From positions 248,001 to 312,000 of the forward strand of contig NZ_CP065139.1 in assembly GCF_015693305.1 (NCBI RefSeq): DNA of 64,000 bases, read 5' to 3'. This document shows positions 17,795-46,565 of this stretch, piece by piece (the first letter of the stretch is position 1; each line of letters starts with the position of its first letter). The notes under the pieces are model-generated. The model saw only the letters and a list, made by a program, of their open reading frames with translations. It was not told the origin of the DNA and ran no database searches. The stretch is from Sphingobium sp. Cam5-1 (GTDB lineage: Bacteria > Pseudomonadota > Alphaproteobacteria > Sphingomonadales > Sphingomonadaceae). A program made the position numbers and the translations under genes.

Positions 17795-18156
17795 GTTGGA
17801 AAACCGACGAGGTCGCACGGGACTGCGTGATCGGAGCTGGCGGAAATCGGCTCCTGACAATCTCGAGCAACGAACGTTATCCGGCGGATCGGCGGCCGGA
17901 ATAGCCACCCGGAATTTCACCGGGTCCTTGCGAATGCCGTTCCCTTAGCCCTCTCGACTGGTGAGGGCAATCCGTCGCTGCGTCGGGATGCGGCGATCAC
18001 TACCACCCACGGTCACGGCGGCGGGCTCCGCTAGGGCGTCCGCGATGAAGGGCTTGTCCTCGAATGCGCCCAGCGCCCGTGTGGTAGACCAACGACTTGT
18101 GCTGAGCGGCTGACCAAGGTCGTTTCTCTCTGGAGCAAGGGAAAGGAGGATGGCCA
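17795..18156. other. Intergenic stretch, no convincing gene
   Basis: 362 bases between the SulP start and the YaiI stop. A GTG-started minus-strand ORF of 70 residues (17945-18157) fills part of it but shows no family-like pattern. A 6-bp hairpin (ACCCGG/CCGGGT, 17907-17925) is the only structured element seen, and it could lie in the sulP leader. Confidence 0.5.
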
Positions 18157-39246: not shown

Positions 39247-39334
39247 TATGCAAAGCCTGTATGCAAAGCATCCATATACGAGACATTGATATGTATATTT
39301 CATCAATTTCACTCGGATGATACATATGCATCAT
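39247..39334 (+). promoter_or_regulatory. Repeat-rich chrB promoter region
   Basis: The AT-rich gap before chrB holds two direct TATGCAAAGC copies (39247-39256 and 39260-39269), an inverted pair ATATAC/GTATAT (39274-39279 and 39293-39298), and an 18-bp near-palindrome centred on CATATG (39317-39334; 16 of 18 bases symmetrical) that runs into the start codon. These are candidate binding sites for the chromate-responsive ChrB. Confidence 0.5.
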
Positions 39335-40289
39335 GAGTCGAACCGAGACCAGCCTGTGGCTTGCCCTTCTGCATCAGCTTCCCGCGAAGCCGCCCTATCT
39401 CCGGGTGAAAATCTGGCGGCGATTGCAAGCGATTGGCGCTGTTCCTCTCAAAAATGCCGTTCACGTCCTGCCGCGCTCGGCCGTGGGTGAAGCGGCGTTC
39501 CGGGAGCTTCTGACCGAGATCACGGAAAATGGCGGCGAAGCGACCCTCATCGAGGCCCGTCTGTTGGTCGGCCAGACCGACCTGGACGTGCGTACGCTGT
39601 TCGATACCGCGCGAGATGCGGATTATGACGAGATCGCGCAGGCCGCTCGCCGGTTGCTGGAAACGGGGCCGACCAGCGGCGCCGATATTGCCCGCCTGCA
39701 AAAACGGATGGAAGAGGTCAGCCGATTGGATTTCTTCGGCGCTCATGGTCGTCAGGACGCCGAGGCCGCGCTGGCGGAACTGGACCGCCAACGTTACCAG
39801 CATCCCGATGTGAGCCGAGCCGAACCGGCGGACACGCCACAGCCGGTCGACCTTATCGGCCGCACCTGGGTCACGCGCAGTGGCATCCATGTCGATCGCA
39901 TCGCCTGCGCCTGGCTGATCCGGCGCTTCATCGACCCGGACGCCCGGTTCAAATTCGTCGACAGCCGCCATTATCATCCCGTCGAGGGCGAGTTGCGCTT
40001 CGACATGGTCGATGCCGAATTCACGCATGAAGGCGACCGTTGCAGCTTCGAAACGCTGATGTTGCGCGCCAACCTGATGAATGATCACGCGCTCGTGGCA
40101 ATCGGCGAGATCATCCATGAACTGGACATTGGCGATGGTAAGTTCGCCCGGCCGGAAACGGCGGGCGTCGGCGCCATGCTGTCGGGCGTCTGCGCATCGA
40201 CCGACGATGATCTCCAGCGCATCGCCAGCGCCAGCGAGGCGCTCAACCAGTTCCACGCCTATTTCAGCACCAGAAAGTCCGAGCGATGA
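39333..40289 (+). CDS. chrB: Chromate resistance protein ChrB
   Basis: 318 residues. N-terminal regulator-like part (LLHQLPAKPPYLRVKIWRRL, KNAVHVLP) and a C-terminal part with TWVTRSGIHVDRIACAWLIRRFIDP, EFTHEGDRCSFETL and IIHELDIGDGKF, the ChrB pattern. ChrB senses chromate and controls chrA; some forms may also have catalytic activity. It overlaps chrA by 4 bases. Palindromes in the promoter region reach its start codon. Confidence 0.9.
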   Translation: MSRTETSLWLALLHQLPAKPPYLRVKIWRRLQAIGAVPLKNAVHVLPRSAVGEAAFRELLTEITENGGEATLIEARLLVGQTDLDVRTLFDTARDADYDEIAQAARRLLETGPTSGADIARLQKRMEEVSRLDFFGAHGRQDAEAALAELDRQRYQHPDVSRAEPADTPQPVDLIGRTWVTRSGIHVDRIACAWLIRRFIDPDARFKFVDSRHYHPVEGELRFDMVDAEFTHEGDRCSFETLMLRANLMNDHALVAIGEIIHELDIGDGKFARPETAGVGAMLSGVCASTDDDLQRIASASEALNQFHAYFSTRKSER

Positions 40290-41689
40290 GCAGCACCATC
40301 ACCGATCTTCACGAAGGCGCCGCTGTTTCGCACGGAGATCATGGAATCGCCTTTGGAGAGGCCGTGCGCGTCTGGGCGCGGATCGCCGCGCTGAGTTTCG
40401 GCGGACCGGCAGGTCAGATCGCCGTCATGCACCGCATCCTTGTCGATGAGAAACGCTGGATCGGTGAGGAGCGCTTCCTACATGCACTCAACTATTGCAT
40501 GTTACTGCCTGGCCCCGAGGCGCAGCAACTGGCGGCCTATATTGGCTGGCTGTTGTACAAGACCAAGGGCGGGTTGGTCGCGGGAGCCCTGTTTGTCCTC
40601 CCCGGCTTCCTGGCGATCCTGGCGCTGAGCTACATTTACGTACTGCTTGGTCATGCGCCGTTGATCGAAGGCCTTTTCTTCGGCCTCAAAGCCGCAGTTT
40701 TGGCGGTCGTCGTTCAGGCGGTTGTTCGCGTCGGCTCCCGCGCGCTCAAGAACAACGTCATGCGAGGCATAGCGGCCGCAGCTTTCGCAGCCATCTTCTT
40801 CCTGGGCGCGCCCTTCCCCGCCATCATATTGGCGGCCGCACTTGGCGGTTATATCGGCGGCCGGGCGGGCCTTCCCGCGTTCAAGGGCGGCGGCGGCCAC
40901 GGATCGGGCCGCGGCAACATTGTCCATGACCGCGACACCGCACTTGGCGAAGGGCTGCCGTATCACGCCCGGCCGAACCTTTTCTGGTCGCTCAAGATTT
41001 CGGGGACCTTGCTGTTCCTCTGGCTTGCACCCGTTGTCCTGCTGTTCGTTTTCGCGGGACCCAACGATGTCTTCACCAAAATCGCGGCCTTCTTCAGCCA
41101 GATGGCGGTCGTGACCTTCGGCGGAGCCTACGCGGTTCTGGCTTATGTGGCGCAAGAGGCGGTAGGCACCTTCGGCTGGTTGCGCCCCGGTGAGATGCTG
41201 GATGGTCTGGGATTGGCGGAAACGACGCCCGGGCCGCTGATCATGGTCACGCAGTTCGTCGGCTTTCTTGCAGCATTTCGCGAATCGACCGGGTTGAATC
41301 CGCTCGTGGCCGCAACGCTGGGGGCAATCCTCACCACCTGGGTCACGTTCGTGCCCTGCTTTCTTTGGATATTCGCGGGCGCGCCCTTTGTTGAAGGGCT
41401 GAGAGGGAACCGGGCACTTTCGGCGTCGCTTGGTGCGATCACCGCCGCCGTGGTCGGGGTTATCCTGAATCTAGCGCTGTGGTTTGCGATCCATACCCTG
41501 TTCCGTGAAGTACGGCCGATCCATCTCCTGGGCAGCAGTTTCGATATGCCCGTTTTGGCGTCGCTGAACCTTCCGGCGCTTGTTTTGGCAGTGGGCGCAG
41601 CGATCGCCGTCTTCCGCTTCAAAGTCGGCATGATCCCGGTCCTGTTTACGTGCGCTGGCTTGGGGGCGGCCTATATCCTCCTCGTCTGA
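40286..41689 (+). CDS. chrA: Chromate efflux transporter ChrA
   Basis: 467-residue long-chain CHR-family antiporter of the inner membrane. It has two homologous halves: RIAALSFGGPAGQIAVMHRILVDEKRW with LNYCMLLPGPEAQQLA in the first, and FFSQMAVVTFGGAYAVLAYVAQEA with LAETTPGPLIMVTQFVGF in the second. About ten helices in all. Coupled to chrB by ATGA. Pumps chromate out of the cell. Confidence 0.93.
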   Translation: MSSTITDLHEGAAVSHGDHGIAFGEAVRVWARIAALSFGGPAGQIAVMHRILVDEKRWIGEERFLHALNYCMLLPGPEAQQLAAYIGWLLYKTKGGLVAGALFVLPGFLAILALSYIYVLLGHAPLIEGLFFGLKAAVLAVVVQAVVRVGSRALKNNVMRGIAAAAFAAIFFLGAPFPAIILAAALGGYIGGRAGLPAFKGGGGHGSGRGNIVHDRDTALGEGLPYHARPNLFWSLKISGTLLFLWLAPVVLLFVFAGPNDVFTKIAAFFSQMAVVTFGGAYAVLAYVAQEAVGTFGWLRPGEMLDGLGLAETTPGPLIMVTQFVGFLAAFRESTGLNPLVAATLGAILTTWVTFVPCFLWIFAGAPFVEGLRGNRALSASLGAITAAVVGVILNLALWFAIHTLFREVRPIHLLGSSFDMPVLASLNLPALVLAVGAAIAVFRFKVGMIPVLFTCAGLGAAYILLV

Positions 41690-41884
41690 GCGGAAGGCGA
41701 TCAAGCGGCGGCTGATGTCCCGCTGGCGACCAAGCGAGCGGGCTTGCCCTATATCTCAATAGGCCTATTTCGCTTCTCGGACCATTGGCCAAAATAAATT
41801 TGTGCAGCGCAAAAAATTGCTTGCGACTCGAATGAATCGATGACAGCTTGCTTTTGATCGGAGCAGGGGCGCTTCGATCCATAG
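41690..41884. other. Upstream leader/promoter region of the nitrate-transport operon
   Basis: 195 bases after chrA with no gene. An AT-rich patch (41760-41830) is the likeliest promoter area for the leader hairpins that follow at 41885-41993. A direct repeat CTTGC is the only other pattern seen. Confidence 0.4.
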
Positions 41885-41960
41885 GTTGAGCCGGGCCGAT
41901 GACGGCAGGGTTCAACTTCGATCCTGGAATGGATCTGCACGGCAATGACGCCGCCCGGAT
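41885..41960 (+). promoter_or_regulatory. Putative NasT/ANTAR-type two-hairpin antiterminator leader
   Basis: Hairpin 1: GTTGAGCC (41885-41892) pairs with GGTTCAAC (41909-41916) using one wobble; above a small internal loop GCC/GGC closes the hexaloop GATGAC (41898-41903). Hairpin 2: CGGC (41940-41943) pairs with GCCG (41950-41953) around hexaloop AATGAC (41944-41949), with a looser lower stem ATCCTGG/CCCGGAT. Known ANTAR targets are tandem hexaloop hairpins with A1 and G4; loop 2 fits and loop 1 has G at position 1. The 3' side of hairpin 2 is also the 5' arm of the terminator, so the two structures exclude each other. Confidence 0.65.
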
Positions 41961-41993
41961 AGGTCGATTGACCTGTATCCAGGCGGCTTTTTT
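41950..41993 (+). terminator. Leader terminator upstream of nitrate transporter genes
   Basis: Stem GCCGCC-GGATA-GGTC (41950-41965) against GACC-TATCC-GGCGGC (41970-41987), with one mismatch and a 2-base bulge, loop GATT, then six T (41988-41993). It lies 137 bases before the first start codon, so it must be bypassed for expression. Confidence 0.85.
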
Positions 41994-42129
41994 ATTGGTT
42001 TTCCGCTGGCGGCCTAGATGCTGCCGGGCGGCTCTCAACATCATCTTCAAACGCCGGAACGCATTTCCGGCGACGGCTGGCTGCGCCCTTCGTGCATCGG
42101 AAGCGCTCAACAGGGAAGGAATTTAGGGA

Positions 42130-43410
42130 ATGGCAGAGGTGGACAATCCGAATGGCGTCAGTCGGCGCGGGCTGCTCAAGACAACCGGAACTGCGGCCCT
42201 GTTTGCCGCAGTGCAGCAGGCATTTCCGTCTGGCGCCTTTGCAGCTGGGGTCGGGCCGGAAGTCACCGGCGCCAAGCTCGGCTTCATCGCGCTGACGGAT
42301 GCGGCGCCGCTGATCATCGCCAAGGAACTGGGCTTCTTCGCCAAATATGGCATGCCCGACGTGCAGGTGGCGAAGCAGGCGAGCTGGGGCGCGACGCGCG
42401 ACAATCTGGTGCTGGGCAGCGCAGGCGGCGGCATCGATGGCGGGCATATCCTGACCCCCATGCCCTATCTGCTGACGCTGGGCCGGATCGGCAAGGCAAC
42501 GCCGATGAGCATTCTTGCCCGCCTCAACGTCAATGGTCAGGGCATTTCAGTGTCCAAGGAATATCTGGGCGCCAAGGCCGATCTCAACGCCGCCAAGATG
42601 AAGGGCGTGATCGCGCAGCGCAAGGGCGCGGGCAAGAAGATCACCATGGCTATGACCTTCCCCGGCGGCACGCATGATCTGTGGATACGCTACTGGCTGG
42701 CGGCGGGCGGCATCGATCCCGACAAGGATGTGGAACTGATCACCATTCCGCCGCCGCAGATGGTTGCGAATATGAAAGCCGACACGATGGATGCCTTCTG
42801 CGTGGGCGAGCCGTGGAACGACCAGCTGGTCGCGCAGCAATTGGGCTACACCGCCGTTTCGACCGGCCAGATGTGGATGAACCATCCCGAAAAAAGCTTT
42901 GCGATGCGTTCCGACTGGGTCGCCAAATATCCGCGCGCGGCGGTCGCGATCACGGCGGCGGTGCTGGAGGCGCAGCGCTGGGCCGACAATCCGAACAATG
43001 TCACGCGACTTGCCGGGGCGATCGCGGGCCGCGATTATCTGAAATGTCCGATCACCGACATTGCCGACCGTTTGCAGGGAAATTTCACCATGGGTGACGG
43101 GCGGAAATATCCCAACGCGCCGTTCAGGATGAAGTTCTGGAATGGCTATGCCAGCTTCCCTTACAAAAGCCACGACCTGTGGTTCCTGACCGAGGAGCAG
43201 CGCTGGGGCAAGCTGCCCATGGCGCTCGACACCAAGGGTACGATCGCCAAGGTCAACCGATCCGACATCTGGCGCAAGGCGGCCGCGATGCTGGGTGGCA
43301 AGGGTCCGGCCAGTGACAGCCGCGGTGTCGAGAAATTCTTCGACGGCAAGACATTCGATCCCGCCAATCCCAAGGCCTATCTGGCCAGCCTGGCAATCAA
43401 GCGCGTCTGA
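42130..43410 (+). CDS. Nitrate-type ABC transporter substrate-binding protein (NrtA-like)
   Basis: 426 residues, periplasmic. Tat signal peptide SRRGLLKTTGTAALF then the NrtA/CmpA opening LGFIALTDAAPLIIAKELGFFAKYGM, KQASWGATRDNLVLG, DGGHILTPMPYLLTLG and AFCVGEPWNDQL, the regions that shape the oxyanion site in the family. AGGGA ribosome site before the ATG. First gene of a permease/ATPase/porin operon under the leader switch. Nitrate is the best guess, supported by the ANTAR-like leader; nitrite, cyanate or bicarbonate relatives remain possible. Confidence 0.86.
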   Translation: MAEVDNPNGVSRRGLLKTTGTAALFAAVQQAFPSGAFAAGVGPEVTGAKLGFIALTDAAPLIIAKELGFFAKYGMPDVQVAKQASWGATRDNLVLGSAGGGIDGGHILTPMPYLLTLGRIGKATPMSILARLNVNGQGISVSKEYLGAKADLNAAKMKGVIAQRKGAGKKITMAMTFPGGTHDLWIRYWLAAGGIDPDKDVELITIPPPQMVANMKADTMDAFCVGEPWNDQLVAQQLGYTAVSTGQMWMNHPEKSFAMRSDWVAKYPRAAVAITAAVLEAQRWADNPNNVTRLAGAIAGRDYLKCPITDIADRLQGNFTMGDGRKYPNAPFRMKFWNGYASFPYKSHDLWFLTEEQRWGKLPMALDTKGTIAKVNRSDIWRKAAAMLGGKGPASDSRGVEKFFDGKTFDPANPKAYLASLAIKRV

Positions 43411-43425
43411 TTGAGGGAGAACGCC

Positions 43426-44391
43426 ATGGCTTCACCATCATCCAACGGCAAAAGCGTACCGTCGGCTTCGGCCGCCGGTGCCGCTACAGCCGCTACCGAA
43501 TTGGGGGTCATCCTGCCCTATCCCGAAGAAGCGATTGCCCGCCGCAGTTTCGAACCGGTCGCGGCGCCGGAACATCCGCTGGTAAAGGCGGCGCGGGCCG
43601 TGGCCGCCAATGTTCTGCCGACGCTGGTGATGCTGGTCGGGTTGCTCGCCTTCTGGCAGCTGCTGTGCAGCTCGCCCGACGCGACCTTCCCCAGCCCGCT
43701 CAAGGTCTGGCAGGAAAGTCATGAGGTGATCGTCCCTCCCTTCAAGGGCGTGGACATTGGGTTGACCCATTTCAGCATTCAGGACGGCGGCGATGTCGGC
43801 ATTGCCGGGCATGTGCTGACCAGCCTCAGCCGTGTGCTAATCGGTTACAGCCTGGCCTCGGTCGTCGGCGTGGCGTTGGGCATTTTGATCGGGCAGAGCA
43901 TATTCGCCTTCCGGGCGTTGGATCCGCTGTTTCAGGTGCTGCGGACGGTGCCGCCCCTGGCTTGGTTGCCGATCAGCCTCGCCATATTCCAGCAGGCGCA
44001 GCCTTCAGCGATCTTCCTGATCTTTATCACCGCGATCTGGCCGGTCATCCTGAATACCGCCGCGGGCGTACAAACCCTTCCGGCGGCCTATCGCAATGTC
44101 GCAAAGGTGCTGGCGCTCAACCCGATCGAATATTTCACCCGCATCATGTTGCCCGCCACGGTGCCGCATATGTTCACCGGCCTGCGCATCGGCGTGGGCA
44201 TGAGCTGGCTCGCGATTGTGGCGGCTGAGATGGTGCAGGGCGGCACCGGCGTCGGCTTCTTCATCTGGGACAGTTACAACAGCTCGCTGCTGACCGACAC
44301 CATCGTCGCGCTGATCTGGATCGGGCTGGTGGGCTTCGCGCTGGACCGCATCGTCGCCTTTGCGGGCCGCATCATCGGCCGCGCAGGCTGA
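43426..44391 (+). CDS. Nitrate-type ABC transporter permease (NrtB-like)
   Basis: 321 residues from the ATG at 43426 (GGGAG ribosome site; an in-frame TTG at 43411 is less likely). A long polar N-terminus of about 60 residues precedes the first helix (LPTLVMLVGLLAFWQLL), then SVVGVALGILIGQS and the ATPase-coupling EAA-type loop around YRNVAKVLALNPIEYFTRIMLP. Forms the membrane channel with the neighbouring ATPase. Confidence 0.88.
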   Translation: MASPSSNGKSVPSASAAGAATAATELGVILPYPEEAIARRSFEPVAAPEHPLVKAARAVAANVLPTLVMLVGLLAFWQLLCSSPDATFPSPLKVWQESHEVIVPPFKGVDIGLTHFSIQDGGDVGIAGHVLTSLSRVLIGYSLASVVGVALGILIGQSIFAFRALDPLFQVLRTVPPLAWLPISLAIFQQAQPSAIFLIFITAIWPVILNTAAGVQTLPAAYRNVAKVLALNPIEYFTRIMLPATVPHMFTGLRIGVGMSWLAIVAAEMVQGGTGVGFFIWDSYNSSLLTDTIVALIWIGLVGFALDRIVAFAGRIIGRAG

Positions 44392-44406: not shown

Positions 44407-45210
44407 ATGAAACAACGCAGCTATCTCGCGCTAGAGGGTATCACGGTCGAATTTCCGACCAAGGCGGGACGCTTCTGCGCGCTCGACGGGATCGATCTGG
44501 AAGTCGACAAAGGACAGTTCGTCGCGCTGATCGGCCATTCTGGCTGCGGCAAGTCGACCCTGCTTAATGCCGTGGCGGGCCTGGTCAAGCCGACGCGCGG
44601 CGCCATCTTTCTCGACGGGGAAGTGGTGGACGCGCCGGGGCCGGATCGGGCCGTGGTCTTTCAGGACCATTCGCTGCTGCCCTGGCTGACGGTCGAGGAA
44701 AATGTGCGGCTGGCGGTCGACAAGACGGCGCAGGGCAAGGGCAAGGCCGAACGCAAGGATTGGGTCATGCATAATCTGGAACTGGTCCAGATGGCGCATG
44801 CCGCCGCCAAGCGGCCAGGCGAGCTTTCGGGCGGCATGAAACAGCGCGTCGGCATTGCCCGCGCCATCGCCATGAACCCCCGCGTATTGCTGATGGACGA
44901 ACCGTTCGGCGCGCTCGACGCATTGACGCGGGCGGCGTTGCAGGATGTGGTCATGGATTTGCAAGCCCGGCTCAACAACACCGTGCTGATGATCACCCAT
45001 GATGTTGATGAAGCGGTGCTGCTGGCCGATCGGGTGGTGATGATGACCAACGGCCCGGCGGCGCGCATCGGCGAGGATCGCTCCATCGCCCTCGCCCGGC
45101 CGCGCAACCGGCTCGAAGCCATCGATACGCCCGAATATGCCGAGGCGCGATCGGCCGTCATCCACTTCCTGCACGAGCGCTACCGCAATCCGGCAACGCT
45201 CGCGGCCTGA
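44407..45210 (+). CDS. Nitrate-type ABC transporter ATPase (NrtD/NrtC-like)
   Basis: 267 residues, a single nucleotide-binding domain. Walker A GHSGCGKSTLL near 44, Q-loop VVFQDHSLLPWL, signature ELSGGMKQRVGIARA near 140, Walker B VLLMDEPFGALDA and switch His in MITHDVDEAVLLADR. No C-terminal NrtA-like fusion, so it is of NrtD length. It energises uptake by the two proteins encoded upstream. Confidence 0.92.
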   Translation: MKQRSYLALEGITVEFPTKAGRFCALDGIDLEVDKGQFVALIGHSGCGKSTLLNAVAGLVKPTRGAIFLDGEVVDAPGPDRAVVFQDHSLLPWLTVEENVRLAVDKTAQGKGKAERKDWVMHNLELVQMAHAAAKRPGELSGGMKQRVGIARAIAMNPRVLLMDEPFGALDALTRAALQDVVMDLQARLNNTVLMITHDVDEAVLLADRVVMMTNGPAARIGEDRSIALARPRNRLEAIDTPEYAEARSAVIHFLHERYRNPATLAA

Positions 45211-45293: not shown

Positions 45294-46565
45294 ATGGGTA
45301 GAATTTCATTTCTGTTGTCGGCAACGGCCCTGACTGCCATCGCGGGACCGGCGCTGGCGCAGGACATTGTGTTCAAGCCGATCATTGAGGCGCGTCTGCG
45401 GTACGAGACGGTGGATCAGGAGGGTCCTGCGCCGCTGACCAGCAGCCGCGATGCCGATGCGGTGACCGTGCGTCTGCGCGCGGGCGGCGAGATTTCCAAG
45501 GGGCCCTTCGCCTTTCTGGCTGAAGGGGAAGGCACGCTGGCAATCGACCAGGATTATAATAGCGGCGTCAATGGCAAGGCGCTCTATCCGGTGGTGCCAG
45601 ACCCGGAAAATGTCGAGCTGAACCGCCTCCAGTTCCAGTATCGCACGAAGCCGTTAGTGGTGACCGTCGGCCGTCAGCGGATCAATCTGGACGATCAGCG
45701 TTTCGTCGGATCAGTCGCTTGGCGCCAGAATGAACAGACGTTCGATGCCGTGCGGGTCGAATATATGGGCGTCAAAAATCTGAAGGTCGATGTGACCTAC
45801 GCGATTTCGGCCCGGACCATCTGGGGCATCGACGGCGGCAAGTTCGGCGCGACCAACCGGCCGACCCAAATCGACGGCGACGATATTTTCGCCAATGTTT
45901 CCTACAAGACCAAATATGGCACGCTGACCGGCTTTGCCTATCTGGTCGATGAGGATGAAGCCGTGGCGGCGCTGCGCCGGAACAGCAGCCAGACCTATGG
46001 TGCGCGGTTCGCGGGCGCGATGCCGCTGTCGAAGAAGGTGAAGCTCAGCTACCTCGCCAGCTATGCGCATCAAAGCGACTATAGGGGCAATCCGGTTGAT
46101 TATTCGGCGGATTACGCCGCTGCGGAACTGGGTTTGGATGTCGCTGCATTCAAGCTGACCGGCGGTTATGAATTGCTCGGCTCAGATGCGAGCGCGACGG
46201 GGATCGCGGGCGGCTTCGCTTTCCAGACGCCCTTCGCGACGCTGCACAAGTTCAACGGCTGGGCCGACAAGTTCCTGACGACGCCAGGGACAGGCATTCA
46301 GGACTATTATGCGGGCGTCGGCTATACCGTGCCCAAGATCGGCAAGGCGGGACCGCTCGTCGCGTCCTTCACCTATCATCATTTCAGCAGCGACCGGCTG
46401 TCGATCCATTATGGCAACGAATATAATGCGCAGGTCACGCTGAAGCTCGACAAGCATCTGAGCGCGCTCGTCAAATATGCCGATTATGATCGCAAGGGTG
46501 CCGCCAGCTTCACCGGCGACGCTGACACGAAAAAATTCTGGGCGCAGATCGACTACGCGCTCTGA
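45294..46565 (+). CDS. Outer-membrane porin, alginate-export/OprB-like barrel
   Basis: 423 residues. Signal peptide cleaved after ALAQ (about residue 23), then alternating beta strands with aromatic girdles (NRLQFQYRTKPLVVTVGRQR, YYAGVGYTVPKIG) and a last strand WAQIDYAL ending in hydrophobic Leu. Fits the alginate-export family of sphingomonad porins. Located 83 bases after the nitrate ATPase, it probably supplies the outer-membrane pore for the same anion. Confidence 0.8.
   Translation: MGRISFLLSATALTAIAGPALAQDIVFKPIIEARLRYETVDQEGPAPLTSSRDADAVTVRLRAGGEISKGPFAFLAEGEGTLAIDQDYNSGVNGKALYPVVPDPENVELNRLQFQYRTKPLVVTVGRQRINLDDQRFVGSVAWRQNEQTFDAVRVEYMGVKNLKVDVTYAISARTIWGIDGGKFGATNRPTQIDGDDIFANVSYKTKYGTLTGFAYLVDEDEAVAALRRNSSQTYGARFAGAMPLSKKVKLSYLASYAHQSDYRGNPVDYSADYAAAELGLDVAAFKLTGGYELLGSDASATGIAGGFAFQTPFATLHKFNGWADKFLTTPGTGIQDYYAGVGYTVPKIGKAGPLVASFTYHHFSSDRLSIHYGNEYNAQVTLKLDKHLSALVKYADYDRKGAASFTGDADTKKFWAQIDYAL

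Follow-up and report, generated by a model that had tools for sequence, protein, structure and literature searches.

The window, a 64,000-nucleotide stretch of contig C2 of a 4.37-Mb genome, carries a nitrate-type ABC transporter operon directly 3′ of the chrB-chrA chromate genes, with a structured leader positioned between chrA and the nrtA-like gene. The features of this region are as follows:

39333-41689: chrB-chrA chromate genes, directly 5′ of the nitrate-type operon (chrA on the same strand as the leader)
41821-41849, + strand: predicted promoter, TTGCGA (41821-41826), 17-nt spacer, CAGCTT (41844-41849)
41856-41879, + strand: P0, the third of the hexaloop hairpins (AGGGGC, 41865-41870, with A1 and G4), -12.7 kcal/mol
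41885-41916, + strand: P1 (hairpin 1), hexaloop GATGAC at 41898-41903 (G1 and G4), z = -4.89
41920-41935, + strand: spacer hairpin GATCC[TGGAAT]GGATC, 5 bp, no A1/G4 hexaloop
41940-41953, + strand: P2 (core of hairpin 2) CGGC[AATGAC]GCCG, loop at 41944-41949 (A1 and G4), predicted antiterminator
41950-41993, + strand: intrinsic terminator with U-tract, z = -5.72
42130-43410, + strand: nrtA-like periplasmic binding protein gene (NMT1_2; Pfam PF13379, 335.5 bits)
43411-44391, + strand: nrtB-like permease gene, start codon uncertain (TIGR01183 ntrB, above cut-off)
44407-45210, + strand: nrtC-like ATP-binding protein gene (TIGR01184 ntrCD, above cut-off)
45294-46565, + strand: outer-membrane porin gene of the Alginate_exp family (PF13372, 37.2 bits)

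The closest named matches of nrtA were found in Sphingobium records. A nitrate-type substrate is predicted for the nrtABC transporter from the NtrB/NtrC-type models and the gene context, and the porin gene is likely the last gene of the unit. The predicted promoter matched the sigma-70 consensus weakly (6 of 12 positions), and the start site is likewise a prediction; a TTGC-N17-hexamer layout with P0 lying 5 to 12 nt past the -10 was detected in 37 of the 43 leaders scanned. Just 5′ of the predicted -35, an inverted repeat, TTGTGCAGCGCAA, was noted at 41800-41812, and many of the 43 scanned leaders have a comparable repeat in the corresponding position; this repeat is possibly the operator of a nitrogen regulator. 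When Rfam 15 was searched, no family matched 41780-42130 up to E = 1 and none was identified in the leader at the gathering threshold. Elsewhere in the window, the sul1 RNA (RF03058) was detected at 17875-17930 on the minus strand, with 77.7 bits compared with a gathering score of 36.2.

The initial annotation had described the leader as two adjacent hairpins, beginning at 41885 and followed by a strong terminator that shares the 3′ half of hairpin 2. Both hexaloops, GATGAC and AATGAC, were found where it had placed them; however, the hairpins are not adjacent, as the 5-bp spacer hairpin lies between them, and the element reaches about 30 nt beyond 41885 on the 5′ side, where the 9-bp AGGGGC hairpin had been missed. 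This hairpin, P0, reads GATCGGAGC[AGGGGC]GCTTCGATC, while P1 is built of 8 bp, a 2x2 internal loop and 3 bp that lead into its loop. The lower stem of hairpin 2, originally drawn as asymmetric, can also be folded symmetrically, as AUCUG/CGGAU around a 2x2 loop, though this fold lies outside the conserved part. The terminator consists of GCCGCC...GGCGGC (41950-41987) followed by TTTTTT (41988-41993), and its overlap with hairpin 2 was borne out, with GCCG at 41950-41953 common to the 3′ arm of P2 and the 5′ arm of the terminator. Among 200 dinucleotide shuffles, none folded as well as the whole of 41885-41993 (z = -4.80), the P1 stretch (41885-41921, to which the z above refers) or the terminator. 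Hairpin 2 alone was unexceptional (two stretches gave z = -2.25 and -0.98 and were equaled by 4 and 35 of 200 shuffles, respectively); the support for this hairpin is comparative, based on its invariant inner pairs. When the growing RNA was folded stepwise, P0, P1, the spacer hairpin and P2 appeared in that order, and the switch from P2 to the terminator occurred only once the 3′ terminator arm was complete. From the shared GCCG, this stepwise folding and the conservation of both structures, P2 and the terminator are mutually exclusive. P0 starts 6 nt past the predicted -10 and would therefore be the first part transcribed. Measured from loop to loop, P0 and P1 are 33 nt apart and P1 and P2 46 nt. 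The leader has at least two hexaloop stems, and all three of its loops have G at position 4 (G4); A at position 1 (A1) accompanies G4 in P0 and P2, and P1 combines G1 with G4.

Conservation of these stems was examined in an alignment of 22 sphingomonad leaders of the nrtA type, that of the window included, which were hand-picked from the 33 leaders located and mostly bear P0. The proposed structure paired 88.2% of cells, compared with 20-44% when the partners were slid, and 18 of the 27 pairs had changes on both sides; the shuffle control for covariation ignores the kinship of the leaders. Stem by stem, the alignment revealed: (i) for P0, 93.8% of cells paired and 6 of 8 pairs changed on both sides; (ii) for the P1 lower stem, 86.4% and 6 of 7 pairs; (iii) for the spacer hairpin, changes on both sides in all five pairs with only 74.5% of cells paired; and (iv) for P2, three inner pairs of the four invariant in all 22 leaders. 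Covariation in the terminator alignment was weaker than in the leader stems (pairing in 90.8% of cells; changes on both sides in 7 of 15 pairs; further pair types matched by 50 of 500 shuffles). P0 and the covarying spacer hairpin are thus additions to the two-hairpin leader first reported. A second leader of the same genome, located before nirB, was spotted by eye and then confirmed by a stem search; its hexaloops are AAGGTT, ACGGTT and AAAGCC with spacings of 35 and 31 nt, its stems are unrelated to those of the nrtA leader, and it matched R1, a leader model trained on nrtA-type leaders, weakly (18.3 bits, E 0.06). A search around nasTS for further leaders with a fixed NATGAC motif found none. 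When 28 nirB leaders were aligned, including that of this genome, 90.5%, 87.9% and 100% of cells were paired in P0, P1 and P2, respectively, and 9 of 20 pairs were changed on both sides, every one of them in P0 or P1.

The two loop positions behaved differently across these alignments. G4 was present in P1 of all 50 aligned leaders (22 nrtA-type and 28 nirB) and in P0 of 28/28 nirB and 20/22 nrtA-type leaders, the latter becoming 21 after one register shift was mended. In the nrtA-type leaders, A1 was found in P0 of 21, in P1 of 6 (the rest having G) and in P2 of all 22; in the nirB leaders, it was found in 25/28 for P0 and 24/28 for P1. Given that G4 is kept nearly everywhere and A1 is relaxed in both P0 and P1, the loops are predicted to differ in their roles. 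The initial annotation had judged loop 2 (AATGAC) a full fit, which holds with both A1 and G4 present, and had suspected a divergent form from the G1 of loop 1 and the asymmetric lower stem of hairpin 2. This suspicion proved sound, with G1 in 16 of the 22 aligned leaders and a third hexaloop present. The odd GATGAC loop is explained by position 1 of P1 often being G; G1 is the commoner state in Sphingobium-type nrtA leaders and, since homologous leaders with A1 in P1 exist (6/22), represents a change within the family rather than a separate origin. One relative (G022) has a P1 loop of GATGAC before nrtA and AATGAT before its porin gene. For P2, the search patterns demanded G4, the pattern of the blind set described below A1 and G4, and that of the nirB set exactly AA(A/G)GCC; A1 and G4 in P2 are therefore present by construction in the nirB alignment and the blind set. 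Scans that allowed A or G at position 1 of P2 returned A in all 27 nirB leaders from relatives, as well as in those nrtA and porin leaders of sphingomonads in which P2 was found. Two Rhizobiales loci (L095 and L108) have GACGCC, with G1, at the P2 place, so the strictness of A1 in P2 is a sphingomonad observation at most. For EutV, A1 is described as making no specific contact and may serve the fold of the loop (PMC8934654). Two further ideas about P1 were set aside: (i) a tetraloop closed by a G1-C6 pair, as viewed by RNAfold, was rejected because this pair is not conserved, position 6 being C in 12 and A, G or T in 4 of the 16 rows with G1; and (ii) co-evolution of NasT with the G1 loop is not needed, as one NasT would face both ACGGTT (nirB) and GATGAC (nrtA) in P1 of this genome, and G022 likewise combines a G1 and an A1 loop in its P1 hairpins.

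In related genomes, the third hexaloop, P0, was found again 5′ of nrtA, narK, porin and nirB genes. It was further examined by a blind test, less selected than the hand-picked alignment, in which the most stable hairpin of the P0 region was taken irrespective of its loop in 94 distinct leaders (identical leaders merged; seven leaders in which the search rule found no P2/terminator, L054_nrtA, L157_NirB, L182_NirB, L188_Porin, L191_NirB, L191_Porin and L192_NirB, left out). A hairpin of -4 kcal/mol or better was detected in 75 of the 94 leaders and none at this threshold in the other 19; 68 of the 75 were a hexaloop or a tetraloop closed by one extra pair. G4 was present in 66 of these 68 hexaloop-equivalents, and a purine at position 1 together with G4 in 65; the corresponding numbers for the control of 2820 shuffles, which gave 979 hairpins and 349 hexaloop-equivalents, were 97 and 53. 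The leaders are related and these counts are non-independent; the loops still differ at positions 2, 3, 5 and 6. P0 loops without G4 were AGCAGA (L033), GAAATC (L203) and AAATCT (L032), and at five Novosphingobium loci (L055, L058, L059, L061 and L062) P1 and P2 were found with P0 missing. When 18 betaproteobacterial nrtA loci were scanned, 7 gave no P2, and the 11 leaders with P2 had one (8 leaders), two (2 leaders) or no (1 leader) upstream hexaloop. As most of these leaders have a single upstream hexaloop, the third loop looks lineage-specific.

An ANTAR domain search of the genome returned one gene only, on contig C1 (74 bits), which encodes NasT, a protein of 193 aa that combines a receiver and an ANTAR domain. 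The end of nasT overlaps the gene of a 400-aa NMT1_2 protein that is NasS-like, and the pair is followed by narK-, nirB-, nirD- and nasC-like genes, with nirB and nirD above and narK and nasC below the curated cut-offs; the names nasT and nasS rest on domain make-up, gene order and similarity. The genome-wide search for nasS-nasT was thus positive, and the statement of the initial annotation that neither gene is in the window is correct, as both are on contig C1. Covarying stems and an ANTAR protein, the two features whose absence would have spoken against the NasR/NasT-type layout that it had proposed, were both present, and this layout is supported. NasT resembles EutV as an ANTAR protein with the same G4-contact residues: R142, K149, E160 and Y164, reported to hold the flipped G4 (PMC8934654), were identical in an alignment of the two proteins, as were K143, R168, M172 and N173, and the contact residues K147, R175 and R177 of EutV were changed to R144, G172 and K174, respectively. 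Release of NasT by NasS on nitrate is described for other bacteria (quoted in PMC6759348), and a NasT is named in a Sphingobium strain by PMC9281055, in whose accessible text leaders are unmentioned.

Leader and regulator were found to occur together in related genomes. Among 150 relatives, R1 matched in 70 genomes at E ≤ 0.1 and reached 45 bits in 32, all 32 being among the 89 ANTAR-positive genomes; ANTAR is common in the genus. Since R1 was trained on nrtA-type leaders, a genome that it does not match may still carry such a leader. Many of the matches below 45 bits are a 46-nt stretch that scores about 21 bits and recurs in many relatives (e.g., G000:C1:2491213-2491258); genomes lacking ANTAR have it too, and it probably represents a conserved hairpin unrelated to the leader. 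In a sample of 298 genomes of the family, 58 had an R1 match (E ≤ 1e-4) and 96 an ANTAR match (E ≤ 0.001), with both present in 56 of the 58 (Fisher p ~1e-31, relatedness ignored). Two R1-positive genomes had no ANTAR match: G415, which is 78% complete, and G416, which is 99% complete but split into about 190 contigs. Conversely, 40 of the 96 ANTAR-positive genomes had no R1 match. A class-wide search returned 4 of 385 genomes, all of the same family, as expected for a model trained on this family. In 47 of 53 genomes, the distance between the R1 match and nasT was within 2 kb, and the leader often stands directly behind nasT-nasS; this count covers 53 of the 58 R1-positive genomes (G000, G027, G045, G415 and G416 left out), with the match nearer nasT entered for genomes that have two. 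At 27 loci of the family, the downstream gene was narK-like in 12, nrtA-like in 5, a porin in 1 and nasC-like in 1, while at 8 none of nine queries matched within the downstream stretch examined. Leaders were also located directly before a porin gene, with no nrtABC between, in four other genomes (G022:C6:299689, G045:C9:104120, G058:C1:1360368 and G064:C12:50864), which ties the porin to leader control; these porins are 74-88% identical to that of the window. Six loci (L164, L165, L166, L176, L177 and L189) hold a porin about 50% identical to the window's between narK and nirB, and a porin thus recurs with nitrate assimilation genes. The nrtA homologue at G065:C1:390691-391967, where the leader scored 136.4 bits, was in two overlapping pieces (residues 1-210 and 207-426) and is probably split by a frameshift or sequencing error.

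The leader shares A1/G4 hexaloops, the last of them overlapping a terminator, with eutP/EutV of Enterococcus faecalis, nasF/NasR and amiE/AmiR (PMC3369931, PMC8934654). ANTAR targets are described as tightly spaced dual hexaloops, with the sole extra hexaloop in EutX, in the accessible text of PMC3369931, PMC8934654, PMC5424462, PMC6759348 and PMC8164766; the leader of the window differs from these antiterminators in having three hexaloops and G1 in P1 (and, in some leaders, in P0). Its P1-P2 distance of 46 nt from loop to loop also stands in contrast to the 5-12 nt linkers of E. faecalis eut, for which linkers of 3 or 14 nt are reported to cause a drastic drop in eutP induction (PMC3369931); 20 extra linker nucleotides abolished EutV antitermination in vitro (PMC8934654). 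In nirB leaders, the loops of P1 and P2 are 31-32 nt apart, and the requirement for a short linker was shown for EutV. Closer in lineage, Paracoccus denitrificans nasA and Bradyrhizobium diazoefficiens nos/nas share an alphaproteobacterial NasS-NasT, a terminator-bearing leader and targets in nitrate assimilation or denitrification (PMC5424462, PMC6759348). For nasA of Paracoccus, the leader is reported to have two hairpins, named HI and HII (PMC5424462), and, unlike the NasT targets described for these two organisms, the unit here is nrtABC with a porin. The EutX/Rli55 RNA likewise combines a dual hexaloop with a single extra G4 hexaloop (PMC8934654); however, EutX is described as a small RNA that sequesters EutV, whereas the three hexaloops here lie in cis before a terminator. 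Among the titles and abstract openings covered, none referred to a three-hexaloop leader or a sphingomonad NasT leader; as subscription papers were outside this scope, absence is unproven.

Overall, the leader is probably a transcription antitermination switch that depends on NasT and offers it three hexaloops as docking sites. The computed basis consists of the elements themselves, their conservation and covariation, the exclusive folds of P2 and the terminator, a single NasT gene with the G4-contact residues of EutV, and the co-occurrence of leaders with ANTAR genes. Binding of NasT to each of the three loops and its relay between them are inferred, and the NasS/nitrate signal is proposed by analogy with NasS-NasT of other bacteria. 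Without nitrate, NasS would hold NasT; RNA polymerase would transcribe first P0, then P1, the spacer hairpin and P2, after which the emerging 3′ arm would allow the far more stable terminator to replace P2, leaving the nrtABC-porin unit off. With nitrate or nitrite present, NasT would be freed and bind the hexaloops by means of a flipped-out G4. It would be loaded onto the nascent RNA at P1 and at P0, which comes first in the transcript, and would then be passed to P2 and hold this hairpin until polymerase clears the U-tract. EutV is reported to bind one hexaloop per dimer, with a proposed hand-over from a recruitment hairpin to the antitermination hairpin (PMC8934654). The 46-nt P1-P2 spacing exceeds the tolerance of EutV and fits only if the spacer absorbs length or NasT differs; we infer that the spacer hairpin may shorten the effective P1-P2 distance and that P0 may be a second loading site.

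Other explanations of the same elements were considered. Stabilizing hairpins are common at transcript 5′ ends, and P0 is at the predicted 5′ end of this transcript; the leader might accordingly be an ordinary dual-hexaloop NasT leader that uses P1 and P2, with an unbound P0 protecting the mRNA or setting the start. The five Novosphingobium loci that manage with two hexaloops and the 8 of 11 betaproteobacterial leaders with one upstream hexaloop would agree with this arrangement. A protective hairpin, however, needs no six-base loop with G4, and the blind test detected G4 in nearly all P0 hexaloops as opposed to about a quarter of those in shuffles; in addition, G4 of P0 is kept while the stems and the other loop positions change, and P0 recurs before nirB. 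An unbound P0 is therefore considered unlikely. It is more improbable still that P0 is a DNA palindrome, i.e., an operator, instead of an RNA element. P0 is an inverted repeat adjoining the predicted promoter; yet its stems are unrelated between lineages (GTCGAAGC, CGAGGC, TCCGAGC and ACGAAC) and carry compensating changes with the loop G4 kept, and in 42 of 43 scanned leaders P0 came after the predicted -10. As chrA is read in the same direction and stops at 41689, the terminator could be a plain one of chrBA, with coincidental hexaloops, an explanation to which we give almost no credence: chrA is separated from the hairpins by a conserved arrangement that resembles a promoter, the leader is retained 5′ of nrtA, narK or porin genes despite different upstream genes (often nasTS), and the conservation of the stems and of the P2/terminator overlap speaks against coincidence.

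For the NasT-dependent switch with three docking sites, the crystal work on EutV provides a point of departure, as it did not settle why a dimer that binds one loop at a time should require two hexaloops (PMC8934654). Two three-loop leaders in one genome (33 and 46 nt; 35 and 31 nt), together with the two-loop Novosphingobium leaders, offer a ready comparison for hand-over, cooperativity and spacing. Tentatively, and with slightly more doubt than confidence, we suggest that much of the Sphingomonadaceae may use a three-step NasT relay, in which the loading sites accept A or G at position 1 and the terminator-blocking site requires A. If so, the response to nitrate would be sharper or more sensitive than that of a two-site switch, and the spacing rule derived from EutV would be broken. 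The arrangement would also place an outer-membrane porin and an inner-membrane transporter together under predicted nitrate control.
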